From the NCBI RefSeq assembly GCF_004028235.1, contig NZ_CP035037.1, forward strand, positions 3,100,001-3,164,000: a stretch of 64,000 nucleotides of DNA, given 5' to 3'. This stretch comes from Leucobacter muris. Lineage in GTDB: Bacteria > Actinomycetota > Actinomycetes > Actinomycetales > Microbacteriaceae. A program made the position numbers and the translations under genes. The notes under the pieces were generated by a model. It was not told where the DNA came from. It was given only the letters and a program-made list of their open reading frames with translations, and did not search any database. Positions 22,551 through 63,996 of this stretch are shown here, piece after piece. The stretch's first letter is position 1. Every line of letters begins with the position of its first letter.

Positions 22551-23594
22551 CTACGGCAGCGGGTCGATCGGGTCGCCCATCAGCTCGCGCGCCTGCTCCA
22601 TGAGCGCGAGCGTCGCGAGCGTCCGGTCGAGCGGGCGCAGCGGCGACTCCGTGAGCCCGGCGTCGATGCAGCGGGCCGCCTCGAGCGCCTCCCAGAACAG
22701 CTGGGTGTGCGCGAGCGCGGGCTCCTCGTAGCGCAACTGCTCGCCGTCGTGGAAGCGCACCGCCACCCCGCCGGGCTGGTAGAAGGGCGCGTCGAGCGAG
22801 AGCGTCGCCTCGGTGCCCGCGATGTAGGCCGTCGTGGGCGTATCCGCCAGCATCGAGGCGCTCACGGTCGCCTGGCGATCCGCGTCGTCGCCCAGCAGCG
22901 CGTGGAACTGACCGATCGCGCCCCGCCCCTGCGCCCCGGGGGCCGCGCAGCGCTGCCCGTGCGCGGCGAGCACCCGCAGGCCGGGCAGCGCCTCGTTCGC
23001 GAACATCATCACGTAGGTGCCGATGTCGTTCATCGCGCCGCCGCCCTGCGCGGGGTCCATCGCGCGGTGATGGCCCACGAGTCGCTCGCCGAGGTTCGCG
23101 TGCACCTCGACGACGTCGCCGAGCAGGCCCCGCTCGAGCACCTGGCGCACCACCGAGAACCGCGGCAGCGCGAGCGACCACACCGCCTCCATGGCGAACA
23201 GCCCTCTCGATCGCGCGTAGGCCGCGAGCGCTCGCGCCTCGGCGAGCCGCGGCGTCATCGGCTTCTCGATGAGCACCGGCTTGCCGGCCGCGAGCGCGAG
23301 CGACGCGTGCGCGAAGTGGTCGAGGTGCCCGGTCGCCACGTAGACGATGTCGGCATCGCTCGCCACGAGTTCCTCGTAGCCGCCGCAGGCCCGCTCGATG
23401 CCGTACCGGGCCGCGAACTCCTCGGCGCGGGCAGCGGTGCGCGATCCGACCGCGACGACGCGCTGCGAGGTGTGCTGCTGCAGCGCCTCCACGAAGCGGG
23501 CCGCGATCCAGCCGGTGCCGAGGATCGCCCAGCGCAGCGAGGGGCCGGCGTGCGGGTCGGGCACGACCGGCTGCGGCATCACCCGCTCGCTCAT
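22551..23594 (-). CDS. Gfo/Idh/MocA oxidoreductase, dihydrodiol-dehydrogenase-like
   Basis: A 347-residue NAD(P)-dependent sugar dehydrogenase-fold protein. Rossmann motif ILGTGWIA near residue 25, catalytic-type VLIEKPMTP segment, then RGLFAMEAVWSLALPRF, a wording seen in trans-dihydrodiol/xylose dehydrogenase-like members. The ATG at 23592-23594 overlaps the preceding gene's stop (ATGA). It is the last gene of an operon running from 28850. Substrate probably a cyclic polyol or sugar; not determinable from sequence. Confidence 0.87.
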   Translation of the reverse strand: MSERVMPQPVVPDPHAGPSLRWAILGTGWIAARFVEALQQHTSQRVVAVGSRTAARAEEFAARYGIERACGGYEELVASDADIVYVATGHLDHFAHASLALAAGKPVLIEKPMTPRLAEARALAAYARSRGLFAMEAVWSLALPRFSVVRQVLERGLLGDVVEVHANLGERLVGHHRAMDPAQGGGAMNDIGTYVMMFANEALPGLRVLAAHGQRCAAPGAQGRGAIGQFHALLGDDADRQATVSASMLADTPTTAYIAGTEATLSLDAPFYQPGGVAVRFHDGEQLRYEEPALAHTQLFWEALEAARCIDAGLTESPLRPLDRTLATLALMEQARELMGDPIDPLP

Positions 23595-24676
23595 CGCGCG
23601 CCCCCGGCCTGCGCCACGGGCGCGAACGCGCCGCCGGCCCGCATCGACGCCACCGCGGCGGCGGCGACGCGGGTGGCGGTCGCGCCGTCCTCGACGGTCG
23701 CGAGCGCGGGTGCGCGGCCCTCGTTCAGGGCGGTCACCCACTCCTGCAGCTCGAGGCGGTACGCCTCCGCGAAGCGGGGCCTGAAGTCGTCGGGGATGCC
23801 GGTGCTCGTGGTGAGCGCCGACGAGACCGCGAGCCGGTGCGGCTCGGTGATCGCCACCGCGCCCGTCTCGCAGACGACCTCGCAGCGCATGTCGTAGCCG
23901 TAGCGCGCGTTCAGGAAGATCTCGACGGTCGACAGCGCGCCGTCGGCCGTGCGCAGCAGCAGCAGGAAGGGGTCGCGCAGGCCGCCGCCCGTCGCGCTCG
24001 GCGCGGCCGGCGCGTGCCAGCTCACCTCGGTCACGGGCGAGTCGAGCAGCCACGGCACGAGGTCGAGGTCGTGGATCGCCGAGTTGAAGATCACCGACTC
24101 GTCGGTGGCACCGGGGCCCGACGAGACGCCGCGCCCCACCGAACGCACCATCACGGGCCGGCCGTGCGCGCCGGAGGCGACGGCGCGCTTCTGCGCGACG
24201 TAGTCGGGGTCGAAGCGGCGCATGAAGCCCTGGTGCACGAGCGGAATGCCGGCGCCTCGCGGCGCGCCGTGGGCTGCCGAAGCGACCGCACCGGTCGCGC
24301 CCTCGGACGCCGCGCGCCCTCGGGATCCGCCCTCGCCCACCGCCGCACGGTGCGCCGCCACCACCCGCTCGGCCTCGTCGACCGAGTACGAGAGCGGCTT
24401 CTCGCAGAGCGTGGGCTTGCCCGCGGCGATGCAGGCGAGCGTCTGCTCGGCGTGCAGGAAATCGGGCGACGCGATGAGCACCGCGTCGACCTCGGGGTGG
24501 GCGATGAGTTCGTGCGGGTCGCTCAGCGCGATCGCGCCGATCGCGGCCGCCGCGGCGCCGGCGCGCTCGGGGTCGGGATCGGCCACCGCGGTGACCGTCG
24601 CACCCGAGACCTGCGCGTGCAGGCACTGCGCGTGGAAGGCTCCCATCACACCCGTGCCGATGATGCCGATCCTCAT
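23591..24676 (-). CDS. Gfo/Idh/MocA oxidoreductase, inositol 2-dehydrogenase-like
   Basis: A 361-residue NAD-dependent dehydrogenase. Rossmann GIIGTGVMG at residues 4-12, LCEKPLS for the catalytic Lys, HQGFMRRFDPDY and NSAIHDLDLVPWLL with the His/Asp pair, the pattern of inositol 2-dehydrogenase and scyllo-inositol dehydrogenases. There is an unusual Gly/Ala/Arg-rich insertion after the EKP region (residues 115-145). Start ATG at 24674-24676 with GAGGAGC upstream. Paired with the following family member by a 4-base overlap. Confidence 0.87.
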   Translation of the reverse strand: MRIGIIGTGVMGAFHAQCLHAQVSGATVTAVADPDPERAGAAAAAIGAIALSDPHELIAHPEVDAVLIASPDFLHAEQTLACIAAGKPTLCEKPLSYSVDEAERVVAAHRAAVGEGGSRGRAASEGATGAVASAAHGAPRGAGIPLVHQGFMRRFDPDYVAQKRAVASGAHGRPVMVRSVGRGVSSGPGATDESVIFNSAIHDLDLVPWLLDSPVTEVSWHAPAAPSATGGGLRDPFLLLLRTADGALSTVEIFLNARYGYDMRCEVVCETGAVAITEPHRLAVSSALTTSTGIPDDFRPRFAEAYRLELQEWVTALNEGRAPALATVEDGATATRVAAAAVASMRAGGAFAPVAQAGGAR

Positions 24677-24725
24677 GCGCTGCTCCTCTGTTCTCACGAA
24701 TCCGCTCTCGATGATCGCCCGGCGT

Positions 24726-25553
24726 CTACTGATCGTAGGCGCCGGGCACGTTCTGGTCCCAGTCGATGATCGACCCCGTCACCACGCCGCTGCGCTCGCT
24801 CAGCAGGAACACGACCGCATCGGCGATCTCGTCCGGCTGCCCCAGCTTCCCCATCGGCTGCGCCGCCTCGGCCCGGGCGAGCCAGTCGGCGTCGGCGCCG
24901 TGGAACGTGCGCTGCGTGACCGTCTCGCCGGGCGTGGCCGTCCACCCGATGTTGAGGCCGTTGATGCGAACGCGGTCGAATCGGTGCGCGAACGCGGCGT
25001 TGCGGGTGAGCCCCGCGAGCCCGGCCTTCGACGCGGTGTAGGGCGCGAGGTAGGGCTGACCGCCGTGCATCGCCATCGAGATGATGTTCAGGATCGTGCC
25101 GGGCGCACCACGCCGCCGCATGTCGAGCACGGCTGCCTGCATCGTCATGAAGGGCGCCACGAGGTTCACGGTCAGGTGCTCGTCGAGCAGCTCCCGCGTC
25201 GTGTCGAGCAGGGTGCCGCGGCTCGTCGCGCCCGCGGCGTTCACCAGGCTGTCGACGCGGCCGAAGCGCTCGATCGTCTCGGTCACGGTGCGCTCGGCCT
25301 CGCCCGGGGCGGCCAGATCGGCCGCGATCGCCAGCACCTCGACGCCCGACTCGGCGCGCGCCGCGCCTTCGGGGCCGCCCCCGATCGCGCGATCCCGGAT
25401 CGCGGCCGCGGCCCGCTCGGCCTTCTCCGCGCTGCGGCCCACGATCGCGATCCCCGTCGCGCCCTCCCGTGCCGCCGCCTCGGCGATCGCGAGGCCGAGG
25501 CCCTGCGTGCCGCCGGTCACCAGCAGGATCTTGCCCGCCATCAGGTTCTGCAT
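24726..25553 (-). CDS. Short-chain dehydrogenase/reductase
   Basis: A 275-residue SDR. Cofactor motif TGGTQGLG near residue 13, NAAGA at the third beta strand, Ser in LNIISMAM, and the catalytic YTASK. It ends with IIDWDQNVPGAYDQ, in place of the usual DGG tail. GAGGAG lies before the ATG at 25551-25553. It sits inside a sugar oxidoreductase operon, so a polyol or keto-sugar is the likely substrate. A large perfect hairpin separates it from the upstream gene. Confidence 0.87.
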   Translation of the reverse strand: MQNLMAGKILLVTGGTQGLGLAIAEAAAREGATGIAIVGRSAEKAERAAAAIRDRAIGGGPEGAARAESGVEVLAIAADLAAPGEAERTVTETIERFGRVDSLVNAAGATSRGTLLDTTRELLDEHLTVNLVAPFMTMQAAVLDMRRRGAPGTILNIISMAMHGGQPYLAPYTASKAGLAGLTRNAAFAHRFDRVRINGLNIGWTATPGETVTQRTFHGADADWLARAEAAQPMGKLGQPDEIADAVVFLLSERSGVVTGSIIDWDQNVPGAYDQ

Positions 25554-25645: not shown

Positions 25646-26683
25646 TCAGTCGAGCCGGCCGGGGCGCAGCGGCAGGCCGCTCGCCGTGTAGATCGCATCG
25701 ATGAGCGCCATCGTGCGGCGGGATCGCGCGAGCGGCTCGGCGGGGCGCTCGCCGCCCCGCAGCTCGCGGCGGATCCTGCGCAGCTGGTACGCGTACGACG
25801 AGACCGTGCCGGCGCGCTCGACGCGCTCCTCGACACCGGCCCCCGTCGTCGTGCGCACGATCAGGCGGTCGTCCTCCTGCGGCTTCACGAAGTTCGGCAG
25901 CAGCACCTCGCCCAGGCTGCCCGTCACCCGCAGGCCGAAGTCCCACCGGGAGCTGTTCATGCTCGTGCGCACCGTCGCGGGCACGTCGCCGAGCGTCAGC
26001 CGCGCGTCGACGGCGGCGTCGACCCGCTCGTCGCCCGCGTACGGCTCCGCCTCCGCCGTCTCCAGCTCGACCGGCGCGCCCATCGCGTCGCCGAGCAGCA
26101 GCAGGGCGTTCAGGGCGTAGCAGCCGAGATCCATCATGGTGCCGCCGGCGAGCTCGAAGCTCCAGCGCGGGTCGCTCGCGGGCGGGGCGGGCATGTGCAT
26201 GCGCACCTCGACCTCGCGCAGCTCGCCGATGCCCTCCGAAAGGCCGGCTCCGGCGTCGCCGTGCCGCACCAGGTCGACCAGGCGCTGCACCGCGGGATGG
26301 TCGGCGTAGTGGAACGCCTCCCAGGCCCAGCCGCTCGAGCTCGCGAGCCGCGACGCGACGGCGTCGAACTCGGCCAGGTTCGCCGCGAAGGGCTTCTCGA
26401 CCAGCACCGAGCGCCCGGCTTCGAGCGCCCTCGCCGTCCACTCGGCGTGCAGACCGTTCGGCAGGCCGATGTAGATCAGGTCGAGCGAGTCGTCGGCGAC
26501 GAGCGCCTCGTAACTCTCGCGGATGCCGCCGTAGCCGTGCTCGGCGGCGTAGGCGCGGGCGCGCTCGGGATCCCGCGCCGCGACCGCGGCCCGCACATCG
26601 CCCGTCGCGCGGCTCGCGTCGGTGATCGCGAGTTCGGCGATGCGCGAGGCGCCCAGCAGTCCGATCCTCAGCGGCTCGCTCAC
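25646..26683 (-). CDS. Gfo/Idh/MocA oxidoreductase
   Basis: A 345-residue NAD(P)-binding oxidoreductase. Rossmann GLLGASRIA near residue 8, VLVEKPFAAN with the catalytic Lys, WEAFHYADHP, and MMDLGCYALN, a pattern close to dihydrodiol/glucose-fructose-type members. The GTG start (26681-26683) overlaps the preceding isomerase stop (GTGA), so the two are translationally coupled and probably act in consecutive steps. Confidence 0.85.
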   Translation of the reverse strand: MSEPLRIGLLGASRIAELAITDASRATGDVRAAVAARDPERARAYAAEHGYGGIRESYEALVADDSLDLIYIGLPNGLHAEWTARALEAGRSVLVEKPFAANLAEFDAVASRLASSSGWAWEAFHYADHPAVQRLVDLVRHGDAGAGLSEGIGELREVEVRMHMPAPPASDPRWSFELAGGTMMDLGCYALNALLLLGDAMGAPVELETAEAEPYAGDERVDAAVDARLTLGDVPATVRTSMNSSRWDFGLRVTGSLGEVLLPNFVKPQEDDRLIVRTTTGAGVEERVERAGTVSSYAYQLRRIRRELRGGERPAEPLARSRRTMALIDAIYTASGLPLRPGRLD

Positions 26684-27549
26684 GCCGCGACCGCCTGCCG
26701 GATGAACTCGACGCTGCGGCGCGCGTTGTCGAGCGCGCGCACCGCGTCGTCGTCGTTCTCGACCACCGTGTCCTGCTCGAGCACGTACCAGCCGTCGTAG
26801 CCCGCGCCGCGCAGGGCGGCGACGATCTCGCCGATGCGGGCGTCGCCGGAGCCGAGCGCCCGGTACATGCCCTGCCGCACCCCCTCGCGGTAGTCGATCT
26901 CGCCGGCGCGCACCCGGCCCGCGACATCGAGGCTCACATCCTTGAGGTGGGCGTGCACGATGCGGTCGGCGTGCCGCGTCACGAAGTCGACGGGGTCGCC
27001 GCCGCCCAGCGTGTAGTGGCCGGTGTCGAGGCAGAGTCCGATGCGCGACCCCTCGACCACGCGCGCGACCGCCTCGGGCGTCTCGACGACCGTGCCGAGG
27101 TGCGGGTGCAGGGTGGCCACGACGCCCACCGCGGCCGCGGCGTCGAGCGCGCGGTCGAGGTTCGCGAGCAGGGCCGCCCACTCCTCGTCGCTCAGCTCGG
27201 CGGCGCCGTCGTAGCCCTCCTCGCCCGTCACGGCCGACAGCACCATGGTGCCGGCGCCGGCCGCCGCGTACGCCTCGAGCTCGCGCTCGATCACGGGGAG
27301 CGGGTCCTCGTCGGCCCGGTGCAGCACCACGGGGAAGAACCCGCCGACCGCCTGCAGACCGGCCTCGGCGAGCGCCGCGGCCCGCTCGGCCGGCGCGTCG
27401 GGCAGGAAGCCCTCGGGCCCGAACTCGGTGGCCGCGATCCCGAGGCCCACCATCTCCGAGAGCACCCGCTCGCGGTCGAGCTGCACCCCCCAGTCGGGAA
27501 CCTCGATGACGCCCCAGCTGATGGGCGCGGATGCGATGCGTGCGTTCAT
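26680..27549 (-). CDS. IolE-like TIM-barrel (sugar phosphate isomerase/epimerase fold)
   Basis: A 289-residue xylose-isomerase-like barrel. It opens SAPISWGVIEVPDWG and carries GIAATEFGPEGFLP, TLHPHLGTVVETPE, LCLDTGHYTLGGGDP and VHAHLKDV. These match the metal ligands and spacing of inosose dehydratase IolE, which converts scyllo-inosose to a diketone. The ATG at 27547-27549 has GGAG upstream. It lies between two Gfo/Idh/MocA genes, the right context for an inositol-like route. True IolE activity is plausible but not proven. Confidence 0.85.
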   Translation of the reverse strand: MNARIASAPISWGVIEVPDWGVQLDRERVLSEMVGLGIAATEFGPEGFLPDAPAERAAALAEAGLQAVGGFFPVVLHRADEDPLPVIERELEAYAAAGAGTMVLSAVTGEEGYDGAAELSDEEWAALLANLDRALDAAAAVGVVATLHPHLGTVVETPEAVARVVEGSRIGLCLDTGHYTLGGGDPVDFVTRHADRIVHAHLKDVSLDVAGRVRAGEIDYREGVRQGMYRALGSGDARIGEIVAALRGAGYDGWYVLEQDTVVENDDDAVRALDNARRSVEFIRQAVAA

Positions 27550-27626: not shown

Positions 27627-28850
27627 TCAGACCCGCGTCGAGGCGGTCGTGCCGGCGACCGGGGAGCTCTGCTCCCAGCCGCGCGACTCGGCGGAGCGCT
27701 CGGCCGCGGTGACGACCTGCGCGGCCGACAGCGCGTCCTGGATGTTCGAGTTCAGCGCCTCGCGCCCGAGCACGGCCTGCAGGAACTTCTTCGCCTCGAT
27801 CACCTTGAGGTCGTCGTAGCCCATCGCGGTGCCGGCGCCGGGCTGGAAACGGCCGAAGTCGCCCATGCCGGGGCGGGCCATGATGCGGGTGTAGCCCTGG
27901 TTCTCGGCGCCGAGGCCGCCAGAGAGGTGCAGCTCGTTCATGCGTTCGAAGTCCCAGTGGGCCGAGCCCTCGGTGCCGTAGACCTCGATGCCGTAACTGG
28001 CGCGCGGGCCGACCGCGACGCGCGACGCCTCGAGCGTGCCGACCGCGCCCGAGGCCGAGGCGTCGTCCGAGAGGCGCACGAGCATCGCGGCGTAGTCCTC
28101 GTTCTCGACGGGCTTCATCTCGCCGTCCTCGATGACGGCGAAGTGCGTGCCGGTGCCCATGGGCAGCTCGGGGCGCTCGACGTAGACGGTCGAGGTGAGC
28201 GCACTGACCTCGCGGATCGGGCCGAGCGCGTACTGCACGAGGTCGACGAGGTGCCCCATCAGGTCGCCTAGCACCCCGTTGCCGGCGAGGCCGCGCACGA
28301 AGCGCCACGACAGCGCGCCGCGGGGGTCGGCCGAGTAGTCGGCGAACATCTGGCCGCGCACGTTGGTGATGCGGCCGAGCCGGCCCTCGGCGACGAGCTC
28401 GCGCAGGTACTCGACGGCGGGCGCGTGCCGGTAGTTGAATCCGATCGACGAGACGACGCCGGCCTCGGCCGCGGCCTCGGCCACCTCGCGGGTCTCGTGC
28501 TCACCTCGGCCGACGGGCTTCTCGATCCAGAAGTGCTTGCCTGCGCGCGCGGCGGCGACGCCGATCTCGGCGTGCAGGAAGTTGGGGGCGCAGATCGAGA
28601 CGACATCGACCTCGGGGTCGTTCAGCACGTCGCGGTAGTCGGCCGAGGCCCGCTCGTAGCCGAGCACCTCGACGGCCTCCTCGGCGCGGGCGGAGGCGGG
28701 GTCGGCCGCGTGCACGAGACGGGGGCGGATCTTGAGGTCGGGGTAGGCGTAGCGCAGGTTCGTGTAGGCACGGCTGTGCAGCTGCCCCATCCAGCCCACG
28801 CTGATGAGCCCGACGCCGATCGTGGTGGTGCCGTCTTCGTTCGTCTGCAT
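27627..28850 (-). CDS. Gfo/Idh/MocA oxidoreductase, long (about 400 aa) subgroup
   Basis: A 407-residue oxidoreductase. LISVGWMGQLHSRAY is its Rossmann start, FWIEKPVGRG gives the catalytic Lys, and GDLMGHLVDLVQYALG carries the conserved His/Asp. It resembles the proteins at 48883 and 55090 in length and in these motifs, a separate subgroup from the IolG-type members. ATG at 28848-28850. First gene of an operon driven by a promoter with a TTGGACCGGTCCAA operator, so LacI-controlled. Confidence 0.87.
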   Translation of the reverse strand: MQTNEDGTTTIGVGLISVGWMGQLHSRAYTNLRYAYPDLKIRPRLVHAADPASARAEEAVEVLGYERASADYRDVLNDPEVDVVSICAPNFLHAEIGVAAARAGKHFWIEKPVGRGEHETREVAEAAAEAGVVSSIGFNYRHAPAVEYLRELVAEGRLGRITNVRGQMFADYSADPRGALSWRFVRGLAGNGVLGDLMGHLVDLVQYALGPIREVSALTSTVYVERPELPMGTGTHFAVIEDGEMKPVENEDYAAMLVRLSDDASASGAVGTLEASRVAVGPRASYGIEVYGTEGSAHWDFERMNELHLSGGLGAENQGYTRIMARPGMGDFGRFQPGAGTAMGYDDLKVIEAKKFLQAVLGREALNSNIQDALSAAQVVTAAERSAESRGWEQSSPVAGTTASTRV

Positions 28851-30322: not shown

Positions 30323-31255
30323 CTATCGGCCGTCGTCCTCTTCCATGGGGATCGCCGTCACGGCCTCCGTGACCGGCACGTGGCCGACACCCGCGGCGGT
30401 GTCCCCTTCGATCTCGTTGCGGATCGTGCGCACCGTGTCGGTGCTGGTGCCCACCTGACGCAGCTCGTGCACCAGCTGCTCGAGCTCGGCGCCGCCCGCC
30501 ATCAGGCCGGTCAGCTCCTCGAGCGAGATCTCCGACTTCTCGTGGTAGCCGATGCTCTGGCCGCGCTTCAGCAGCAGGAACCGGTCTCCCACGGGGTAGG
30601 CGTGGTGCGGGTTGTGCGTGATGAAGATCACGCCCAGACCGCGGTCGCGCGCCTGGATGATGTAGCGCAGCACGACACCCGACTGCTTCACGCCGAGCGC
30701 GGCGGTCGGCTCGTCGAGGATCAGCACCTTCGCGCCGAAGTACACGGCTCGGGCGATGGCGACGCACTGGCGCTCGCCCCCCGAGAGGGTGCCGATCGGC
30801 TGATCCACGTCGCGCAGATCGATGCCCATGTCGAGCAGTTCCTTCTTCGCCGTCTTCCGCATGAAGTCGACGTCGAGCCGGCGGAACGGCCCCCACCCCT
30901 TCGTCACCTCGGAGCCGAGGAAGAAGTTGCGCCACACCGGCATGAGCGGCGCGACCGCGAGATCCTGGTAGACCGTGGCGATGCCGCGGTTGAGCGCCTC
31001 GCGGGGGGAGCCGAACTTCACCTCCTCACCCTCGACGAGATAGGCGCCCTCGGTGTTCTGGTGCAGACCCGCGATGATCTTGATGAGCGTCGACTTGCCG
31101 GCGCCGTTGTCGCCGAGCACGCACATCACCTCTCCCGGGCTCACCTTCAGGCTCACGTCGCGCAGCGCGATGATGTTGCCGTAGCGCTTGCCCGCCTCGC
31201 GAAGCTCGACGAGCGGCGCGCCGGTCTTCGGCTCGACCGTTGCGGTGGCGTTCAT
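30323..31255 (-). CDS. Sugar ABC transporter ATP-binding protein (single-domain, FrcA-like)
   Basis: A 310-residue ATPase. Walker [11 protein letters not shown]-loop [20 protein letters not shown], signature LSGGERQ, Walker [12 protein letters not shown] and switch His [12 protein letters not shown]. Unlike RbsA it has one nucleotide-binding domain, as in fructose/mannose FrcA. A C-terminal extension of about 50 acidic residues is unusual. ATG at 31253-31255 overlaps the permease stop by three bases. Third gene of the SBP-permease-ATPase operon. Confidence 0.88.
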
Positions 31256-32319: not shown

Positions 32320-33318
<999 letters not shown>

Positions 33319-38234: not shown

Positions 38235-38352
38235 GATGCTCCTTCTGTTGCTGTGTTCCTGCGGTCTGTAGAAGAGGTGCGGATGATGCTGGTGGCGCGC
38301 GGCCGGTCGGGCTGCTCGCGCGGAGTTCGATCGGGCGCGATCCCGATCCGGA

Positions 38353-39802: not shown

Positions 39803-39824
39803 CGCCGCCCCTTCACCCTCGAAC

Positions 39825-48002: not shown

Positions 48003-48065
48003 CAAGTTTCTCCTCTGTCTCTCCATTGAGCCGAAGCGAGTGGCTGTCGCCAGTCGTCAGTCGCC

Positions 48066-48101: not shown

Positions 48102-48196
48102 TAAAACTGAAACTCCGCTGAAACGATCAGGAAACGCGATGGCACACGATTCGCGAGATCCTCGAGGATGCGGAGATCTGGAGACTGGTAACGAAC

Positions 48197-51246: not shown

Positions 51247-51317
51247 CGTCACCTCCGCCGCCTCACCGGTCGCCGCACTCCGCTGCGGCATCCCTCACAT
51301 CCTAGGGCTCGGCGCGG

Positions 51318-53471: not shown

Positions 53472-53485
53472 TTGGACCGGTACAA
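53472..53485. promoter_or_regulatory. LacI-type operator (site 4), one-base variant
   Basis: TTGGACCGGTACAA differs from the other three sites by one base in the right arm. It lies 90 bases before iolG and just upstream of TATACT on the minus strand. It probably controls iolG-TIM-small protein-lacI. Confidence 0.7.
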
Positions 53486-55089: not shown

Positions 55090-56280
55090 GTGACCGCATC
55101 ACTCGGCGTCGCCGTCATCGGCGCAGGCATGGCCGGCAAGGCCCACGCCGCCGCCTACCGCGCAGCCTCCACGCTCTACAAGCCCACGCTGCCCCCCATC
55201 CGCCTCGCCTCGATCGCCGACATCAACGTCGAACTCGGCGCCGAGGCCGCCGCTCGCTACGGCTTCGAACGCCACGACTCCGACTGGCGCGCCATCGTCG
55301 ACGACGACGGCATCGACGTGGTGAGCGTGGTCGTGGCGAACTTCCTGCACCGCGAGATCGTCGAGGCCCTGCTCGCCGCGGGCAAGCACGTGCTCTGCGA
55401 GAAGCCGCTGAGCGACACCATCGACGACGCGCGCGCCATGGCCGAGGCCGCGCGCGCCGCCGCAGACCGAGGCGCGCTCGCCCGCATCGGCTACAGCTAC
55501 CTGCGCGCCCCGGGCATCGCCTTCATTCGCAGCCTCATCGACGACGGTCGCCTCGGCGACGTGCTGCACTTCTCGGGTCGCTACTGGACCGACTACGGCT
55601 GCCGACCCGACGCGCCCATGAGCTGGCGATACCAGGGCCCCGCCGGATCGGGCGCCCTCGGTGACGTCGGCAGCCACCTCAGCTACATCGCCGAGTACCT
55701 CTGCGGCGACGTTCAGCGGGTCTCGGGCGGCCGCTTCCACACCTCGATCACCGAGCGCCCGAAGCCGCTCGGCGCCGTCGTCGGTCACACCCGCGGCAAC
55801 GTGAGCGACGAGCTCGCGCCGGTCGAGAACGACGATTACGCCACCTTCAATGCGCAGTTCGAGCGCTGCGTCGGCACGCTCGAGGTATCGCGCGTCGCCG
55901 CCGGGCACCCGAACGACCTCTCCCTCGAGATCTTCGGCTCGAAGGGCGCCGCACGCTGGAGCCAGACCAATCCCGGCCAGGTCGAGGTCATGCTGCACGA
56001 CGAGCAGACCGACCTCGCCGGCTACCGTACCGTGCCGCTCGGCCCCGAGCACCCCCACTACGCCGGGGGCTGGGCGATGGATGCACCGGGTGTCGGCATC
56101 GGCCAGAACGACCTGTTCGTGCACCAGGCCCGCGCATTCCTCGAGGAGGTCGCAGGCATCCCGGAGGCCGAATCGCTGCCCCGCTGCCGCACCTTCGACG
56201 ACGGCGTGCACAACATGGAGTTCCTCGCCGCGGTGGCGGAGTCGGCCGCGCGGGGCGGATCCGAGATCACGGTGCGCTGA
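55090..56280 (+). CDS. Gfo/Idh/MocA oxidoreductase, long subgroup
   Basis: A 396-residue oxidoreductase, GTG start at 55090 with GAAAGGA upstream. VAVIGAGMAGKAHAAAYRAA is the Rossmann start, LCEKPLSDT the Lys segment and GALGDVGSHLSYIAEYLCGD the His/Asp. Similar to the proteins at 27627 and 48883. First gene of a LacI-controlled operon with a TIM-barrel gene and another family member, the pairing seen in keto-sugar pathways. Substrate unknown. Confidence 0.86.
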   Translation: MTASLGVAVIGAGMAGKAHAAAYRAASTLYKPTLPPIRLASIADINVELGAEAAARYGFERHDSDWRAIVDDDGIDVVSVVVANFLHREIVEALLAAGKHVLCEKPLSDTIDDARAMAEAARAAADRGALARIGYSYLRAPGIAFIRSLIDDGRLGDVLHFSGRYWTDYGCRPDAPMSWRYQGPAGSGALGDVGSHLSYIAEYLCGDVQRVSGGRFHTSITERPKPLGAVVGHTRGNVSDELAPVENDDYATFNAQFERCVGTLEVSRVAAGHPNDLSLEIFGSKGAARWSQTNPGQVEVMLHDEQTDLAGYRTVPLGPEHPHYAGGWAMDAPGVGIGQNDLFVHQARAFLEEVAGIPEAESLPRCRTFDDGVHNMEFLAAVAESAARGGSEITVR

Positions 56281-56449: not shown

Positions 56450-57445
56450 ATGAAACTCGGCGTCTACAACGCGATCCTGCACGACCGCAGCCTCCCCGAG
56501 GCGATCGCGGTCGTGCAGCGCCTCGGCCTCACCGGCATCGAGCTGAACACGGGCGGTTTCCTGCCCCCGGTGCACGTGCCGAACCGCGAGCAGATCCTCA
56601 CCTCCGACGCGGCCCGCGACGAGTTCCTCGGCCGGTTCGAGGGCACCGGCGTGCAGATCGCCGGCCTCAACTGCAACGGCAATCCGCTGCACCCGAAGCC
56701 GCTCATCGGCGACGCACACGCCGCCGACGTGCGCCGCTCGATCGAGCTCGCCGCGCGGCTCGGCCAGAACCGCGTGGTCACCATGTCGGGCCTGCCGGGC
56801 GGTGAGCCCGGCTCGACCGTCGTCAACTGGGTGGTCAACGCGTGGAACTCGGCCGCGCTCGACGTGCTCGACTACCAGTGGGACATCGCGGCGGCGTTCT
56901 GGCGCGAGATCGACCGCTTCGCCGCCGACCACGGGGTGAAGGTGGCGCTCGAACTGCACCCGCAGAACCTCGTGTTCAACTCGGCCGACGTGCACAAGCT
57001 CATCGAGCTGACGGGCGCGACCCACGTGGGGGTCGAGCTCGACGCCTCGCACCTGTTCTGGCAGCAGATGGACCCGGTCGCGGTCGTGCGGCACCTCGGC
57101 GAGCTGGTCTTCCACGCCGCCGCGAAGGACGTGCGCGTGAACCTTGAGTTCGCGCGCCTCAACGGCGTGCTCGACAACTCGTTCCGCCGTCTGTCGCCCG
57201 ACGAGCCCCGCACGAACCTTGGCGGCGACGAGTGGGCGAACGAGTGGCCGAAGCAGTCGGCGTGGGACTTCGTGGCGCTCGGCAGGGGCCACGACACGGC
57301 ATTCTGGACCGAGTTCCTGCGGGCGCTGCGCGACGTGGATCCCGAGATGTGGGTCAATATCGAGCACGAGGACGTGTCGCTCGGGCGCATCGAGGGCCTC
57401 GAGGTGGCCTCGCGGGTGCTGCGCGACGCCGCCGCCGCGCTGTAG
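56450..57445 (+). CDS. TIM-barrel sugar isomerase/epimerase-fold protein (331 aa)
   Basis: A longer barrel, MKLGVYNAILHDRSLPEAIA at the start. Metal-site segments are GLTGIELNTGGFLP, VKVALELHPQNLVFN, VGVELDASHLFWQQMDP and FHAAAKDV, and the C-terminal WVNIEHEDVSLG. An extra region around RRLSPDEPRTNLGGDEWANE is not in the 290-residue members. ATG at 56450, AGAAAG upstream. Second gene of the operon. The fold and context allow isomerase, dehydratase or glycoside-lyase roles; unknown. Confidence 0.83.
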   Translation: MKLGVYNAILHDRSLPEAIAVVQRLGLTGIELNTGGFLPPVHVPNREQILTSDAARDEFLGRFEGTGVQIAGLNCNGNPLHPKPLIGDAHAADVRRSIELAARLGQNRVVTMSGLPGGEPGSTVVNWVVNAWNSAALDVLDYQWDIAAAFWREIDRFAADHGVKVALELHPQNLVFNSADVHKLIELTGATHVGVELDASHLFWQQMDPVAVVRHLGELVFHAAAKDVRVNLEFARLNGVLDNSFRRLSPDEPRTNLGGDEWANEWPKQSAWDFVALGRGHDTAFWTEFLRALRDVDPEMWVNIEHEDVSLGRIEGLEVASRVLRDAAAAL

Positions 57446-57561: not shown

Positions 57562-58590
57562 ATGCGCATCGGACTCGTCGGCTACGGAGCCGGAGGCCGG
57601 CTCTTCCACCTGCCCTACATCCAGGCCGCGGCGGAGTGGCGGATCGCGGGTGTCGTCACCCGCTCGCCCGCGCGCCGCGCGCAGCTCGTCGAGGAGGCGC
57701 CCGGGGTGCCGGCCTTCGATTCGCTCGACGACCTCCTCGACGCCGGCGTCGACGCGGTGGTCACCTCCACGCCCCCGGGTACCCGCCGCGAGCTGGTGCT
57801 GCGAGCGCTCGCGCGGGGCGCGCACGTGGTGGCCGACAAACCGTTCGCCCCGCATCTCTCGGGCGCCCGCGAGTTGGCCGACGCCGCGCGGGCCGCGGGC
57901 CGGGTGCTGACGGTGTTCCAGAACCGGCGCTGGGACACGGATCTCGTCACGCTGCGCGGCGCGCTCGAGTCGGGCGCGCTCGGCACGCCGTGGCGCGCGG
58001 AGCTGGTGCTGGATCAGGACGACCCGGGCACACTCGAGTCCGGGCCCGACGACGGCCTGCTGCGCGACCTCGGGGCGCACGTCGTCGACCAGGCGATCCA
58101 GCTGTTCGGGCCGGTGGCCCGGTTCGACGGGCACCTCGACTGGCTCGACGTCGACGGCGGCAGGGTCGACGTCGGCTTCGCGCTCGGGCTGCACCACGGC
58201 TCGGGGGTCTACAGCGCAGTCTCGGCGAGCAAGCTGGGGCGCCGGTCGGAGCGCCGCATGGTGGTCTACGGCAGCGAGGGATCGTATGCGTCGCGCATGC
58301 ATGACGTGCAGTTCGACCGGATCATGGCGGGCGAGCGGCCCGCGGCGGCCGCGCAGTGGGGCGTGGAGCGGGAGGAGCGCTGGGGCGTGCTCTCGACTGC
58401 GGCGGGCGAGCGGCGGGTGCCCTCGGCCGCCGGTGACTACTCGGCGTTCTACCGCGGTCTGCACGCGGCGCTCGCCGAGGGTGCACCACTGCCGGTGCGG
58501 CTCGACGAGGCCCTGCACACGATCGCGGTGCTCGACGCCGCGAGGGAGAGCGACGCGCGGGGCCGCTCGATCGAGGTCGAGACCGCGTAG
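57562..58590 (+). CDS. Gfo/Idh/MocA oxidoreductase
   Basis: A 342-residue oxidoreductase. GLVGYGAGGRLFHLPYIQAA opens the fold, VVADKPFAPH replaces the usual EKP by DKP, FQNRRWDTDLVTL is the YvaA/YdgJ-type segment and DLGAHVVDQAIQLFGP carries the His/Asp. The wording fits the scyllo-inositol dehydrogenase (NADP) IolW/YdgJ group. ATG at 57562 with GGGAG upstream. Last gene of its operon; a bidirectional hairpin follows. Confidence 0.87.
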   Translation: MRIGLVGYGAGGRLFHLPYIQAAAEWRIAGVVTRSPARRAQLVEEAPGVPAFDSLDDLLDAGVDAVVTSTPPGTRRELVLRALARGAHVVADKPFAPHLSGARELADAARAAGRVLTVFQNRRWDTDLVTLRGALESGALGTPWRAELVLDQDDPGTLESGPDDGLLRDLGAHVVDQAIQLFGPVARFDGHLDWLDVDGGRVDVGFALGLHHGSGVYSAVSASKLGRRSERRMVVYGSEGSYASRMHDVQFDRIMAGERPAAAAQWGVEREERWGVLSTAAGERRVPSAAGDYSAFYRGLHAALAEGAPLPVRLDEALHTIAVLDAARESDARGRSIEVETA

Positions 58591-58761: not shown

Positions 58762-60201
58762 CTACTTCTGCGGCAGGTAGATCGCGCCGGTCGTGACGTC
58801 CTCCTCGAGCTCCTCGAGCGTGCGGCCGCGCGTCTCGGGCACGAACCTCCACACGAACAGCAGCGCCAGTGCGCCCACTCCGGCGAAGAGGTAGAACGTG
58901 CCCGTGATCCCGACCGCGTCGACGAGCGACAGGAAGTAGAGCGACAGGAACCCGTTGGTCACCCAGAGCATGAACACGGCGACGCCCATGCCGAAGCCGC
59001 GCATGTGCAGCGGGAAGATCTCGGAGAGGTAGACCCAGACGGCCACGTTGAGGAACGTCTGCATCGAGCCGACGAACAGCACGACGAGGAGCAGGATCAC
59101 CCAGGGTCGCGCCGGGTTGCCGACGGGCAGCGTCATGGAGGCGAGCGCGATCAGCAGGTGGCTCGCGGTGGTGAGCGTCAGACCGGTGATGAAGGTCTTG
59201 CGGCGATCGAAGCGGTCCATCATGGCGAGGGCGATGATGGCGCCCACCACGGCGATGACGCCGGGGGCGATGTTCGCGATGAGGGCGGCGCTCTCGTCGA
59301 AGCCCGACTCGACGAGCACCGTCTGGCCGAAGTACATGATCGAGTTGATGCCGGTGAGCTGCTGGGCGATGCCGACGCCGATGCCGATCAGCAGGATGCG
59401 CAGCAGGTTCTTGTTCGAGAAGACGGCGCGCCACCCGAGCTGGGTCTCGACGGCCTCCTCGGCGGTGATCCGCTCGAGGTCGCGCATCTCGGCCTCGGCG
59501 CGATCTTCGGATCGCACGGTCTTGAGCACCGCGAGCGCGTCGGCGCGGCGGCCCTTCTCGACGAGCCAGCGCGGCGATTCGGGCATGCGCAGCATGCCGA
59601 AGAAGAGCGCGATGGCGGGCAGCGCGCAGATCGCGAACATGATGCGCCAGACGCCGTCGAGGTGGCCGAGGGCGTTGCCGATGATCGCGTTGACGACGAA
59701 GGCGGCGAGCTGGCCGGTGACGATCATCAGCTCGTTGCGGCCCGCGAGGGAGCCGCGGATCTCGTAGGGCGCCATCTCGGCGAGGAAGACGGGCACCACG
59801 GTCGAGGCCCCGCCGACCGCGAGGCCGAGCAGCACGCGCCCGATCACGAGCACGGTGAGGCCGGGGGCCGCGACGACGAAGAGGGTGCCGACGAAGAACA
59901 GCACGGCGAGCAGGATGATGGTCTTGCGGCGGCCCCAGCCGTCGGAGAGACGGCCGCAGAGCATGGCGCCGATCGCGGCGGCGAAGATGAGCGAGCTGGT
60001 GACGACTCCCTCGGTGAAGGGGTTGAGGCCGAGTTCGGCGGCCATGGGCCGCAGCGCCCCGTTGATCACACCCGTGTCGTACCCGAAGAGCAGGCCGCCG
60101 AAGGTCGCGATCAGCGCGACGAGGCCGAGCCGCTTGCGGTGCGGGCCGCCGGTGAGCGGCGGCAGGGTCGATGTGCTCGGGTCTATGGATGCTGAGGCCA
60201 T
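58762..60201 (-). CDS. MFS sugar porter, probably myo-inositol/H+ symporter
   Basis: A 479-residue 12-helix sugar porter. FGGLLFGYDTGVINGALRPM in helix 1, DGWGRRKT and DRFDRRK loop motifs, PESPRWLVEKGR before the central loop, QQLTGINSIMYFG in helix 7 and PETRGRTLEELEE at the end. This is the IolT/GalP family. ATG at 60199-60201 with AAGGAG. An AATGT-N4-ACATT motif lies 62 bases upstream. Inositol is favoured by the iolG/iolD context, but not proven. Confidence 0.9.
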   Translation of the reverse strand: MASASIDPSTSTLPPLTGGPHRKRLGLVALIATFGGLLFGYDTGVINGALRPMAAELGLNPFTEGVVTSSLIFAAAIGAMLCGRLSDGWGRRKTIILLAVLFFVGTLFVVAAPGLTVLVIGRVLLGLAVGGASTVVPVFLAEMAPYEIRGSLAGRNELMIVTGQLAAFVVNAIIGNALGHLDGVWRIMFAICALPAIALFFGMLRMPESPRWLVEKGRRADALAVLKTVRSEDRAEAEMRDLERITAEEAVETQLGWRAVFSNKNLLRILLIGIGVGIAQQLTGINSIMYFGQTVLVESGFDESAALIANIAPGVIAVVGAIIALAMMDRFDRRKTFITGLTLTTASHLLIALASMTLPVGNPARPWVILLLVVLFVGSMQTFLNVAVWVYLSEIFPLHMRGFGMGVAVFMLWVTNGFLSLYFLSLVDAVGITGTFYLFAGVGALALLFVWRFVPETRGRTLEELEEDVTTGAIYLPQK

Positions 60202-61141: not shown

Positions 61142-62014
61142 TCACGCCGAGGCGATCAGCTCTTTGATCTTCGCGAGCTGGAACTTCGAGATCTCGTCGG
61201 CCCGCTCGTCTTCGGCGAACACGTTCGACACGATGAGCGCGTCCTCGCGGTCGAGGAAGCCCGTCTGCCGCAGCGTGCCGAAGAGCTCGGCCCAGTCGAC
61301 GTCGCCGTCGCCGATCGCGAGGTGCTGGTGCACGCGCACGGCGTTGCCGGGCGGGTTGGTGATGTAGCGCAGCGCGTTCGAGCGCGTGTGGTCGAAGGTG
61401 TCGGCCGCGTAGACGGCGCCCAGGCGATCGCCAACCTCGGGCAGCAGCGAGGCCGCGCGGTCGCCGTAGTGGAACGTGTGCGCACCCACGTAGACGAAGC
61501 CCACGCGGTCGGTGTTCAGACCGCGGATGATGCGCCACGCCTCGAGCCCGTCCTCGACGAAGTCGTCGGGGTGCGGATCGAAGTTGAGCGTGACGCCCTC
61601 GCGCTCGAGCACCGGCACCAGCGCCTCCATCGCGCGGTAGAACGCGAACTCCGACTCCTCCTCGCGCTCGGGGCGGCCCGAGAACTCGGTGTTGACGATG
61701 GGCGCCTCGAGCTCGGCCGCGATCTCGATGTAGCGGGTCGTGTTGAAGATCGCGGCCTGCACCTGGTGCTCTTCGGGCCCGCCGAAGCGCTGCACGGGCA
61801 GCACCGACGTGATCGTCACCCCGGCGTCGTTCGCGCGCTTCTTGAGCTTCGCGATCATGTCGCCGTCGACCTTCGGATAGTGGAAGTGGCGCCCGAAGTC
61901 GGGGTTCGGGGTGAGCTGCAGGTACTCGTAGCCGAGCCGCGCCACCAGGTCCGGGAAGTCGAGCAGGTGGACGGTGCCGTTGTAGGGGGTGGGATCGAGA
62001 GCGATGCGAACCAT
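61142..62014 (-). CDS. TIM-barrel sugar isomerase/epimerase-fold protein
   Basis: A 290-residue barrel, MVRIALDPTPYNGTVHLLDF. Segments LGYEYLQLTPNPDFGRHFHY, VTLNFDPHPDDFVEDG, VGFVYVGAHTFHYGD and AVYAADTFDHTRSN hold metal-type His/Asp/Glu. ATG at 62012-62014 with AAGGAG. Last gene of the right-edge operon, after an IolG-like gene. Reaction unknown. Confidence 0.83.
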   Translation of the reverse strand: MVRIALDPTPYNGTVHLLDFPDLVARLGYEYLQLTPNPDFGRHFHYPKVDGDMIAKLKKRANDAGVTITSVLPVQRFGGPEEHQVQAAIFNTTRYIEIAAELEAPIVNTEFSGRPEREEESEFAFYRAMEALVPVLEREGVTLNFDPHPDDFVEDGLEAWRIIRGLNTDRVGFVYVGAHTFHYGDRAASLLPEVGDRLGAVYAADTFDHTRSNALRYITNPPGNAVRVHQHLAIGDGDVDWAELFGTLRQTGFLDREDALIVSNVFAEDERADEISKFQLAKIKELIASA

Positions 62015-62042
62015 CGGGAGCTCCTTTGCTGTGCGGTGCGGG

Positions 62043-63059
62043 TCAGGCGTAGAAAGCGGGGCGCTCGGGCGCCTCGACGGGCACGATACCGCCCTCGTGC
62101 AGGGCCTTGACCCCGGCCTCGCACGACAGCGCGACGAGGTAGCCGTCCCACGCGTTGGGGCCGTCGATGAGGTCTCCGCGGCGCACGGCGTCGACCCAGC
62201 GCTGGATCTGCGCGTCGTAGGCGGCGGCGAACCGCGTGGTGAAGCTCTCATGCTCCCGCACGCGGAAGAACCCGGCGTCCCAGCGCTGCAGGCCCGACGG
62301 CTGGCCGATGCGGGCGATGCCCTTCTCGAAGACGGCCTCGGTGGCGACCTGGTAGCCGAACTGCACGCTGACGTTCATCTCGACGTCGACGAGCACGCCG
62401 TTCTCGAGCTCCATGATCACGAGGATCGGCTCGCGCAGGCGCTCCGGGGCGAGCGAGTTGCGGCGGGGGTGCTTCACCTCGACGCTCACGACGCGCGACC
62501 CGGCGAGCCACGGCACCACGTCGAACTCGTGCACCACCGAGTCGGTGATGAGCATGTCCTCGGTGTAGCTCTCGGGCACCGAGGGGTTGCGGTGCAGCGC
62601 GCGCACCATCAGCAGCTCGCCGCTCTCGCCCGAGGAGACGAGCTCGCGCAGGGCCTGGTACTCGTCGTCGAAGCGGCGCATGAAGCCGAGCTGGATGTGC
62701 GGGCGGTCGAGCTGCTGCTCGCGCTCGAGGATCTCGAGCGAGCTCTCCGAAGTCTGCGTGAGGGGCTTCTCGCACAGGATGGGCAGCCCCGCTTCGAGTG
62801 CCGGCTTCAGCACCGGCGCGTGGAACTGGCCGGGGGTCGCGATGAGCACCGCGTCCATGGCGCCGGCCTCGATCGCCTCCTCGAGGCGCGTGAAGGAGAG
62901 GGATCCCGGGGCGTCGGCCGCAGCCGCCTCTGCACGGCCGGCGTCGGGCTCGACGATGGCGGAGACGCGGGCGCCCGCGATGCGGTGCGTGATGCGCTTG
63001 ATGTGGTCGGCGCCCATCATGCCGGCGCCGACGACGGCGACGCGGAGTTCTTCAGTCAT
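62043..63059 (-). CDS. Gfo/Idh/MocA oxidoreductase, inositol 2-dehydrogenase-like
   Basis: A 338-residue oxidoreductase. VAVVGAGMMGADHIKRITHR is the Rossmann start, LCEKPLTQTSES the Lys segment, LGFMRRFDDEYQALRELV the substrate loop and TDSVVHEFDVVPWLAG the His/Asp, close to IolG. ATG at 63057-63059 with AAGGAG. Flanked by two TIM-barrel genes in one operon (gaps of 13 and 28 bases). Confidence 0.88.
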   Translation of the reverse strand: MTEELRVAVVGAGMMGADHIKRITHRIAGARVSAIVEPDAGRAEAAAADAPGSLSFTRLEEAIEAGAMDAVLIATPGQFHAPVLKPALEAGLPILCEKPLTQTSESSLEILEREQQLDRPHIQLGFMRRFDDEYQALRELVSSGESGELLMVRALHRNPSVPESYTEDMLITDSVVHEFDVVPWLAGSRVVSVEVKHPRRNSLAPERLREPILVIMELENGVLVDVEMNVSVQFGYQVATEAVFEKGIARIGQPSGLQRWDAGFFRVREHESFTTRFAAAYDAQIQRWVDAVRRGDLIDGPNAWDGYLVALSCEAGVKALHEGGIVPVEAPERPAFYA

Positions 63060-63072
63060 CTTTTCTTGCTCC

Positions 63073-63996
63073 TTAGGAGATTCGCGCCAGGTGGGTGCAG
63101 CCGAAGATGTGCTCACGGGTGCGCCGGGCGATCGGGAGGGGGCGGTCGACGTCGCAGCCGTACATGTCCTGCTCGACGATCGCGAAGATCTCGGGGTCGA
63201 TCTTCGCGACGGCCTCGATCACGGGTGCGAGGTCGGGGATGCCGTTCGGCGGCTCGATCATGATGCCGTCGGCGACGGCGTCGACGAACGACGTGTCGTT
63301 CTTCAGCACGTCGAAGAGCAGCGTGGGATCGACCTGCTTGAGGTGCAGGTAGCCGATGCGCTCGGGGCGCTGCTCGATGAGCTGCACGTTGTCGCCGCCG
63401 TAGTAGGCGAAGTGGCCGGTGTCGAGGCAGAGGTTCGTGTAGCGGGGGTCGGTCTCGTCGAGGAAGCGCAGCACCTCTCGCGTGGTGCCGATGTGGCTGT
63501 CGGCGTGCGAGTGGAACTGCTGCCGCATGCCGAACTCGTCGAGCAGCGCCTTCCCGAGGCGGTCGTGGCCGGCGGCGAGCTTCGTCCACTGCTCGTCGTC
63601 GAGCGTGCGGGGCTCGAGGTTCTCGCCGGTGACGTCGCTGCGCCAGAGGTCGGGGATCACGACGAGGTGCTCGGCGCCGAGCTTCGAGGCGAGGCCGGCG
63701 ACCGCGAGGGCCTGGTCCCAGGCCCGCTGCCACTGCTCGTCGCCCTTGTGGAAGCCCGTGAAGACGGTGCCGGCCGAGAGCTTGAGGCCGCGCGTGCCGA
63801 GTTCGTCCTCGAGCTGGTGGGGGTCGGTGGGCAGGTAGCCGTAGGGGCCGAGTTCGATCCACTCGTAGCCCGCCTGCACGACCTCGTCGAGGAATCGCCG
63901 CCAGGGCACCTGGCCGGGGTCGTCCGCGTGCCAGACGCCCCAGGAGTCGGGCGCCGTGCCGATGCGCAGTCCGGGGTTGTCGGTGATAGCTGCCAT
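63073..63996 (-). CDS. IolE-like TIM-barrel (probable inosose dehydratase-type)
   Basis: A 307-residue barrel. GTAPDSWGVWHADDPGQVPW opens it, then GYEWIELGPYGYLP, FHSHADSHIGTTREVLRFLD, LCLDTGHFAYYGGDN and GYLHLKQVDP. These line up with the HHHMGT/DTGH/HVHFKD pattern and metal ligands of IolE. The ATG at 63994-63996 is close to the right edge, so the promoter is outside the window. First visible gene of its operon. Dehydration of a keto-inositol is the likely reaction. Confidence 0.85.
   Translation of the reverse strand: MAAITDNPGLRIGTAPDSWGVWHADDPGQVPWRRFLDEVVQAGYEWIELGPYGYLPTDPHQLEDELGTRGLKLSAGTVFTGFHKGDEQWQRAWDQALAVAGLASKLGAEHLVVIPDLWRSDVTGENLEPRTLDDEQWTKLAAGHDRLGKALLDEFGMRQQFHSHADSHIGTTREVLRFLDETDPRYTNLCLDTGHFAYYGGDNVQLIEQRPERIGYLHLKQVDPTLLFDVLKNDTSFVDAVADGIMIEPPNGIPDLAPVIEAVAKIDPEIFAIVEQDMYGCDVDRPLPIARRTREHIFGCTHLARIS

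Follow-up and report, generated by a model that had tools for sequence, protein, structure and literature searches.

A second IolD module and a possible phosphate-free lower branch in an inositol gene supercluster of Leucobacter muris

The breakdown of inositol is commonly depicted as a single phosphorylating pathway that varies in the dehydrogenases at its top. The genome of Leucobacter muris, a single contig of 3,211,982 bases, contains in its bases 3,100,001-3,164,000 (the 64,000-nucleotide stretch analysed here, hereafter the window, whose numbering we use) a region from 22551 to 63996 in which nine genes for Gfo/Idh/MocA oxidoreductases (O1-O9) and seven for PF01261 barrel proteins (B1-B7) lie together with part of an iol operon and with a second set of genes around another IolD-type hydrolase, IolD2. 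We tentatively read this region as an inositol/cyclitol supercluster built of modules, with the ordinary phosphorylating iol operon at one end and a second, LacI-controlled pathway at its centre; our confidence in this falls a little short of even.

Gene content of the region

All 16 oxidoreductase and barrel genes had been listed by a first-pass annotation made from the letters alone, and profile searches of the whole genome recovered every one. PF01408 detects 11 loci, all above cut-off, nine of them in the region, and each of these nine proteins also matches PF22725. PF01261 detects 11 loci at E<=0.001 (10 above cut-off), seven of them in the region. Uniform placement would put 0.14 Gfo/Idh/MocA genes and 0.13 barrels in 41.4 kb; the corresponding binomial tails, 5e-16 and 7e-12, are crude because genes cluster in operons. 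At genome positions 262414-270324, one of the two remaining Gfo/Idh/MocA genes lies 6-8 kb from two PF01261 barrels, which may mark another sugar cluster. Gene starts were taken from a codon model built in this analysis, and synteny labels are best tblastn matches. Comparisons use 18 related regions, 17 from the same genus and one Nesterenkonia locus, picked by IolD2; these regions are kin, and counts over them are not independent.

The same annotation had described many of the genes as paired by overlap or shared operon. This holds for O1/O2 and O3/B1, which overlap by 4 bp, for B4-O6 (gap of 43 bp) and for B6-O9-B7 (gaps of 28 and 13 bp), and B1 is flanked on the same strand by both O3 and O4; it does not hold for B2 and B3, which have no adjacent Gfo/Idh/MocA gene. 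Inositol, also proposed there, is indeed the common theme across the region. The suggested set of parallel oxidise-then-eliminate routes survives in part, as one inositol-type regulon, a canonical operon and two smaller modules. There are not many equal routes: the operons of O1-O4 and O6 share a putative operator with IolD2, and the canonical operon covers O9, B6 and B7.

At the right end, B6, O9, B7 and the following genes are an ordinary actinobacterial iol operon, preceded by an MFS porter and a TauE-family protein. It includes B6-O9-B7 (61142-63996) and extends past the window end with, in this order, IolD1 (830 bits, cut-off 715), IolB (240, cut-off 205), a methylmalonate-semialdehyde dehydrogenase in the IolA place (669, cut-off 448.5), in the IolJ place a protein with weak aldolase-type matches only (24 bits; the aldolase-place gene), and IolC (362, cut-off 300). 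A GntR-type regulator is divergently encoded. The cluster qualifies as an IolCatGC, defined by at least three of iolB, iolC, iolD and iolE, through IolD1, IolB and IolC, all above cut-off; the barrels B1, B7, B5, B6 and B4 stay under the IolE cut-off of 290 (TIGR04379: 157, 130, 42, 20.5 and 20). The TauE/SafE-family membrane protein (60311-61078) recurs in 14 of the 18 related regions and in most cases separates the MFS porter from the iol operon.

A second IolD module and its conservation

IolD2 is 44% identical to IolD1, and both exceed the IolD cut-off (TIGR04377, 715). Around it we define a six-gene core: IolD2, the IolE-like barrel B1, the dehydrogenase O4, an aldehyde dehydrogenase (ALDH2), a D-2-hydroxyacid dehydrogenase (HADH) and an HpaI/GarL-type aldolase (HpcH). 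HpcH shares a Pfam family with the characterised aldolases and belongs to a different subfamily (TIGR02311, 182 against 369; GarL TIGR03239, 168 against 407). Its nearest solved relatives are 4-hydroxy-2-oxoheptanedioate aldolases, and its matches include the hydroxyketoacid aldolase 6r62, crystallised with hydroxypyruvate bound (PMC10099721). B4 lies under the cut-off of the Hyi model TIGR03234; its nearest structures are the Hyi-type protein 3ngf and YgbM (1k77), with both of which it shares an R.EP..GE..Y stretch. The best NCBIfam model of the solute-binding protein SBP1 is a rhizopine binding protein, at 185 bits under a cut-off of 420, and the locus does not qualify as a rhizopine (moc) cluster; the best structural match of SBP1, 4ru1, is presumably a myo-inositol complex. 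An AraJ/Cmx-type MFS transporter gene at 29033-30237 lies in two overlapping frames and looks broken; homologous pieces stand beside O4 in 9 of the 18 related regions.

An IolD2 orthologue (78-91% identity) is present in at least 17 of 53 same-genus genomes and was found in none of 7 other genomes of the family and none of 39 further genomes of the order, among at most 12 candidates scored per genome (up to 28 were found, so that misses are possible). Matches at 81-91% identity come from eight Leucobacter records and one of Nesterenkonia muleiensis. HADH, HpcH, IolD2, ALDH2, SBP1, the permease PERM1 and the ATPase ABC1 recur in all 18 related regions, B1 and O4 in 17 (the remaining region is a contig of 9.7 kb), O3 and the short-chain dehydrogenase SDR1 in 16, O6 in 15 and B4 in 12. 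In one genome (G049), ALDH2-IolD2-HpcH-O4-HADH-B1-O3 are consecutive on one strand, the last six overlapping by 4-10 bases.

Beyond the genus, a survey of 396 genomes of the order (own included; at most six candidates scored per genome of up to 36 found, again with possible misses) identified HpcH relatives at 55-64% identity in at least nine genomes from five genera and four families. In all nine loci, B1, HADH, O4, IolD2, ALDH2 and a gene of the O6 type share the strand of HpcH and lie no more than 12 kb from it. At least six genera, our own and these five, thus have the six-gene module next to the canonical operon, and HpcH, HADH and ALDH2 accompany IolD2 in 27/27 regions, the 18 related and the nine out-of-genus ones together. 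As controls we took 20 other IolD neighbourhoods, 16 from other genera of the family or order and four loci of a third IolD type within the genus; four of the 20 are shorter than 20 kb. HpcH has no match in any of the 20 and HADH matches in two. Two further weak HADH matches (blastp) fall in third-type loci, one of them a Pfam-confirmed 2-hydroxyacid dehydrogenase. Since these loci pair IolD with an aldehyde dehydrogenase with no IolB nearby, an IolD-ALDH-HADH combination without the aldolase also exists.

The four third-type loci (L167, L168, L169 and L170) belong to other genomes of the genus. L170 holds a Gfo/Idh/MocA gene, hydantoinase A and B, an FAA hydrolase, a class-III aminotransferase and a 2-hydroxyacid dehydrogenase; L168 holds a 2-hydroxyacid dehydrogenase and an amino acid permease. 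Such loci may perhaps serve an aminocyclitol pathway.

In a tree of 43 IolD proteins, all 14 module IolDs (own, 4 of the 18 related, 9 out-of-genus) form one clade (support 100/100) and the canonical IolDs a separate clade of 22 (100/99), with a warning of possible false long-branch joins, including that of IolD2 with the third type. A plasmid search for the HpcH aldolase gave no match at 1e-40; IolD2 matches occur on 154 plasmids, all below 60% identity.

A common palindrome

A search for intergenic palindromes found ACTTGGACCGGTCCAAAT twice, upstream of SBP1 and of ALDH2. Genome-wide, its 14-base core, TTGGACCGGTCCAA, occurs five times at up to two mismatches, always in the window (Table 1). 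The number of sites alone is not high (within the window and at up to three mismatches, 5 where 1.5 would be expected, a number reached by 3 of 100 shuffles); it is their placement and conservation that carry weight. The 18 related regions contain 64 sites at up to two mismatches, 25 of them exact; 200 permuted palindromes average 4.6 and 0.005 there (maxima 38 and 1). The counts are not independent, because the regions are kin. The palindrome before ALDH2 is exact in 18/18, and that before O4 is found in 16/18; it is absent from G049, which has O4 within the ALDH2 operon, and from G038, whose contig stops short of O4. Outside the genus it occurs, at up to one mismatch, in six of the nine loci, precisely those with a LacI1 at 43-47% identity.

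The gene for LacI1 follows O6 and B4, and LacI1 is therefore the likely reader of the palindrome, which we take as a putative operator. The regulon so defined would join O1-O4, O6, SDR1, B1, B4, IolD2, ALDH2, HADH, HpcH and the transporter.

Table 1. Features of the region, in window coordinates (scores in bits)
Feature	Position	Strand	Remarks
O1, Gfo/Idh/MocA, Gfo6 xylose-dehydrogenase-like	22551..23594	-	Tyr replaces catalytic His; orthologues in 11/18 related regions
O2, IolG-subfamily oxidoreductase	23591..24676	-	Asn at catalytic Asp position
SDR1, short-chain dehydrogenase	24726..25553	-	PRK06198 362 > 240
O3, Gfo/Idh/MocA, Gfo6-like	25646..26683	-	Tyr type
B1, IolE-like barrel	26680..27549	-	157, cut-off 290; nearest solved structures IolE
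O4, dehydrogenase near LGDH / scyllo-inositol dehydrogenase	27627..28850	-	module core
Putative operator ATGGACCGGTCCAA	28916..28929		upstream of O4-B1-O3-SDR1-O2-O1
ABC1, sugar ABC transporter ATPase	30323..31255	-	
PERM1, permease PF02653	31252..32298	-	
SBP1, solute-binding protein	32320..33303	-	best PDB match 4ru1, 272
Putative operator TTGGACCGGTCCAA	33569..33582		upstream of SBP1-PERM1-ABC1
B2, PF01261 barrel	33644..34519	+	98; 46% identical to B3
HADH, D-2-hydroxyacid dehydrogenase, PGDH/glyoxylate-reductase-like	34559..35455	-	under all cut-offs
HpcH, HpaI/GarL-type class II aldolase	35488..36288	-	under both equivalog cut-offs
IolD2, second trihydroxycyclohexanedione hydrolase	36285..38234	-	TIGR04377 753 > 715
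ALDH2, aldehyde dehydrogenase	38353..39732	-	best model 460 < 650
Putative operator TTGGACCGGTCCAA	39825..39838		upstream of ALDH2-IolD2-HpcH-HADH
B3, QuiC/IolI-like barrel	39955..40830	-	inserted module
O5, LGDH-like dehydrogenase	48883..50055	+	inserted module
LacI1, likely regulator of the TTGGACCGGTCCAA regulon	50194..51291	-	
B4, hydroxypyruvate-isomerase-like barrel	51507..52331	-	113, cut-off 353
O6, inositol 2-dehydrogenase	52375..53382	-	TIGR04380 375 > 355
Putative operator, 1 mismatch	53472..53485		upstream of O6-B4-LacI1
LacI2	53852..54946	-	divergent from O7
Variant palindrome TTGGAGCGCTCCAA	55010..55023		between LacI2 and O7
O7, LGDH-like dehydrogenase	55090..56280	+	276, cut-off 650
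B5, PF01261 barrel	56450..57445	+	331 aa
O8, YdgJ/YvaA-like oxidoreductase	57562..58590	+	in 5/18 related regions
MFS sugar porter, IolT by position	58762..60201	-	
B6, barrel in IolH place of canonical operon	61142..62014	-	
O9, IolG of canonical operon by position	62043..63059	-	best model 288, cut-off 540
B7, IolE of canonical operon by position	63073..63996	-	130, cut-off 290

A putative phosphate-free lower branch

The explanation that best accommodates these genes, and one that we regard as close to an even bet, is a second LacI-controlled pathway whose lower branch would run free of phosphate to hydroxypyruvate and malonate semialdehyde. The substrate and each reaction are predicted from gene families and gene order. 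A CUT2 ABC transporter with SBP1 would import a cyclitol; the dehydrogenases O6, O4, O3 and SDR1 would make the inosose, with O1 and O2 as accessory enzymes; and B1 would take out water in the manner of IolE. IolD is established to act by hydrolysis to 5-deoxyglucuronate, and IolD2 would likewise open the ring, to a 5-deoxyhexuronate. From here three enzymes would stand in for IolB-IolC-IolJ: ALDH2 would turn the aldehyde into a 2,3,4-trihydroxyadipate, and HADH would oxidise the 2-(R)-hydroxyl of this acid, a reaction whose analogue 2-ketogluconate reductases run in reverse. The resulting 2-oxo-4-hydroxy acid (2-oxo-3,4-dihydroxyadipate) would be cleaved by the HpaI-type aldolase HpcH into hydroxypyruvate and malonate semialdehyde, the latter passing to IolA. 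The hydroxypyruvate-isomerase-like B4, whose operon has the same palindrome, would be in keeping with hydroxypyruvate as a product. More generally, we advance only tentatively that this may be a kinase-free cyclitol route, spread across several Actinomycetes genera, that would replace IolB, IolC and the 2-deoxy-5-ketogluconate 6-phosphate (DKGP) aldolase, with LacI1 reading TTGGACCGGTCCAA. If so, surveys that count iolB, iolC, iolD and iolE overlook a second lower branch, a so far unassigned HpaI-type aldolase subfamily acquires a function, and a kinase-free route leads to hydroxypyruvate and an acetyl-CoA precursor.

Several observations weigh against this proposal. HpcH, HADH and ALDH2 reach no model cut-off, so that their substrates are not fixed by the models. 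A control pattern, the palindrome read backwards, has 8 genome sites against 5, and the palindrome is absent from three of the nine out-of-genus loci, where the LacI1 match is 34-36% identical or missing. B4 did not turn up in the 20-kb regions of the nine out-of-genus loci, which implies that hydroxypyruvate isomerase is not part of the core. Finally, canonical IolB is present in all 28 module carriers tested (18/18 in the genus, own included, Nesterenkonia, and 9/9 out-of-genus), as it is in four non-carriers; with no carrier lacking IolB among the 28, the module is nowhere seen to be self-sufficient. It either depends on the lower steps of the canonical pathway or handles a different cyclitol alongside them.

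The genome G017, a single contig, bears on this choice. A second IolD stands beside IolD2 in every other carrier (as partial matches alone in G027 and G034); in G017 the single IolD above cut-off is IolD2. Its canonical operon lacks B6, B7 and IolD1 and keeps IolG, IolB, IolA, the aldolase-place gene and IolC at 87-96% identity. Exact palindromes stand before its MFS gene and between the aldolase-place gene and IolA, with a one-mismatch copy between O6 and O8; a canonical operon that carries the palindrome of the second pathway is a case of regulatory rewiring. From the gene content of G017, IolD2 and B1 can be a cell's only ring-opening pair of that kind. This fits 5-deoxyglucuronate as the IolD2 product, and is compatible both with a feeding of IolB and with the proposed aldolase step, which would require IolA to follow it. 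We had taken G017 as proof of a self-sufficient module, and dropped this once IolB and IolC were found present; that both are kept with IolD2 alone counts on the other side, as it also fits IolD2 feeding IolB.

The second set could accordingly be a paralogous upper pathway in which B1 and IolD2 make 5-deoxyglucuronate for the canonical IolB-IolC-aldolase steps, while ALDH2, HADH and HpcH handle by-products or another nutrient. G017 favours this both by its losses (IolE1, IolD1 and B6) against what it retains and by its palindrome copies before IolA-IolB-IolG and before the MFS gene, as does the presence of IolB in every carrier tested. We nevertheless consider it unlikely: redundancy alone would hardly preserve a second IolD in all carriers but G017 (even with the partial matches of G027 and G034), and HpcH, HADH and ALDH2 are constant company of IolD2, while HpcH is absent from the 20 other IolD neighbourhoods.

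A module for a different ring, one that yields a ring-opened product beyond the reach of IolB (an O-methyl-inositol, a rarer stereoisomer, a deoxy-inositol or an aminocyclitol like scyllo-inosamine), would predict the observed co-occurrence of both pathways. The rhizopine binding model that SBP1 approaches, far under its cut-off, and the several oxidoreductase subfamilies sharing the palindrome point the same way. The six core genes, however, include no demethylase, aminotransferase or deaminase, and O6, which its score marks as an ordinary inositol 2-dehydrogenase, belongs to an operon with the same palindrome; we judge this alternative doubtful too, and note that it is compatible with phosphate-free lower steps.

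Oxidoreductases and smaller modules

The nine oxidoreductases are not redundant IolG copies, a reading ruled out by model scores, motif comparison and tree. O6 alone passes the inositol 2-dehydrogenase cut-off (TIGR04380); the remaining eight lie at 42-202. The IolG/D-chiro model comes closest for O2 and O9 (216 and 288, cut-off 540), Gfo6 xylose dehydrogenase for O1 and O3 (69, cut-off 350) and the YdgJ type for O8 (166, cut-off 330). O4, O7 and O5 reach 286, 276 and 245 against the 650 of levoglucosan dehydrogenase (LGDH, LgdA; NF052479). Phylogenetic placement, one of the checks proposed in the first-pass annotation, splits the nine into deep groups that each hold orthologues from other species, in a tree that carries warnings of possible false long-branch joins and some unsure joins between groups. 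At more than 55% identity, orthologues of O1-O9 occur in 11, 10, 16, 17, 2, 15, 14, 5 and 13 of the related regions, at 59-95% identity and without stops. Catalytic residues were mapped by motif, with the triad as given in the parts of PMC9603128 available to us. O2 has Asn in place of the DxxxH catalytic Asp, as do all ten of its orthologues; O1 and O3 have Tyr at the position of the catalytic His. In Corynebacterium glutamicum, dehydrogenases altered at this Asp (OxiC, IdhA3) allow no growth on inositols; restoring the Asp in IdhA3 brought no improvement, and activity is cited for another enzyme that has Glu at this position (PMC9603128).

LGDH is first or second among the solved relatives of O4, O5 and O7, those of O4 also including scyllo-inositol dehydrogenase, and O7-B5-O8 has the dehydrogenase-barrel-oxidoreductase make-up of lgdA-lgdB-lgdC as far as PMC10066097 describes it. 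Both points suit a set of C-glycoside or levoglucosan oxidation-elimination routes, in line with the glycoside routes among those that the first-pass annotation had suggested. Such routes become very improbable in view of the LGDH scores (245-286 against 650), of B5, whose sole PDB match at E<=0.001 is 2zds (59 bits), and of O7-B5 pairs inside or beside canonical iol genes in G071 and three genomes of the genus g14. C-glycoside cleavage in particular was abandoned: among 40 Pfam-scanned open reading frames (ORFs), part of those of the region, there is no lyase partner of the DUF6379 type, which we take to be the name of the C-glycoside lyase subunit family, and none of the nine oxidoreductases is above a glycoside-dehydrogenase cut-off. 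O7-B5 recurs in 14 of the 18 related regions, with O8 in 5, behind the LacI2 gene and the variant palindrome TTGGAGCGCTCCAA; as its homologues sit within or next to iol genes, inositol glycosides are the more plausible substrates, ahead of free levoglucosan.

The block 39955-50055 is a separate and rare module, present in 2 of the 18 related regions and free of palindrome sites. It holds B3, a second short-chain dehydrogenase (SDR2), an IolM-like alcohol dehydrogenase (ADH), a VOC (glyoxalase-fold) protein, an M24 peptidase-fold protein, an ABC transporter, a GntR regulator and O5. The ADH, at 41660, best matches IolM (NF041097) at 204 against 450, short of a Thermotoga-type IolM system. A reading of 34559-48026 as one operon was ruled out because of the rarity of the block and because no palindrome lies between 39838 and 53472. 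At the left edge of the supercluster, in most related regions as here, stands a metal ABC transporter (17245-20919) with an AztC/MntC-like binding protein (224 against 350) and two AztB/anchored-repeat-type permeases.

Comparison with known systems

Large inositol clusters of Leucobacter are in print: those of Leucobacter musarum and Nesterenkonia muleiensis are among the IolCatGC examples of figure 2b in Weber and Fuchs 2022 (PMC9430895), which also presents a 76-kb Oceanobacillus fragment of 34 genes with 12 putative dehydrogenases. The Leucobacter muris region is a cluster of the same kind and, as such, known. Its second IolD module, palindrome and six-gene core are not described in the text of that paper as available to us, where 'HpcH' and 'hydroxypyruvate' are absent from the main text. 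The many Gfo/Idh/MocA genes of such clusters may be explained by several of them belonging to one second regulon. Our literature search, which left most subscription journals outside, returned nothing on an aldolase branch of inositol breakdown or on the module and palindrome; acid names such as trihydroxyadip- and 5-deoxyglucar- did not occur in it, and dihydroxyadip- occurred in a single paper, on synthetic chemistry. The module looks undescribed as a pathway, in keeping with the expectation that some routes here would be.

The seven inositol dehydrogenases of C. glutamicum likewise represent several candidates, with differing isomer preference, in one actinobacterium (PMC9603128, in the parts available). 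By eye, O2, O6 and O9 carry the GF(M/N)RRFD motif and motif-V Tyr that mark its myo/D-chiro group. Unlike that set, O4, O5 and O7 (LGDH-like) and O1 and O3 (Tyr type) belong to other subfamilies, and O2 has Asn at the catalytic Asp. The levoglucosan system LgdA-LgdB-LgdC resembles O7-B5-O8 in families and make-up, again as far as PMC10066097 was available. Unlike it, O7-B5-O8 falls far under the LgdA cut-off and is tied to iol clusters.

Thermotoga uses IolG-IolM-IolN-IolO as an alternative inositol route and, to our knowledge, this route has no IolD. In contrast, IolD2 is central to the module described here, and the IolM-like ADH sits apart in the inserted block.

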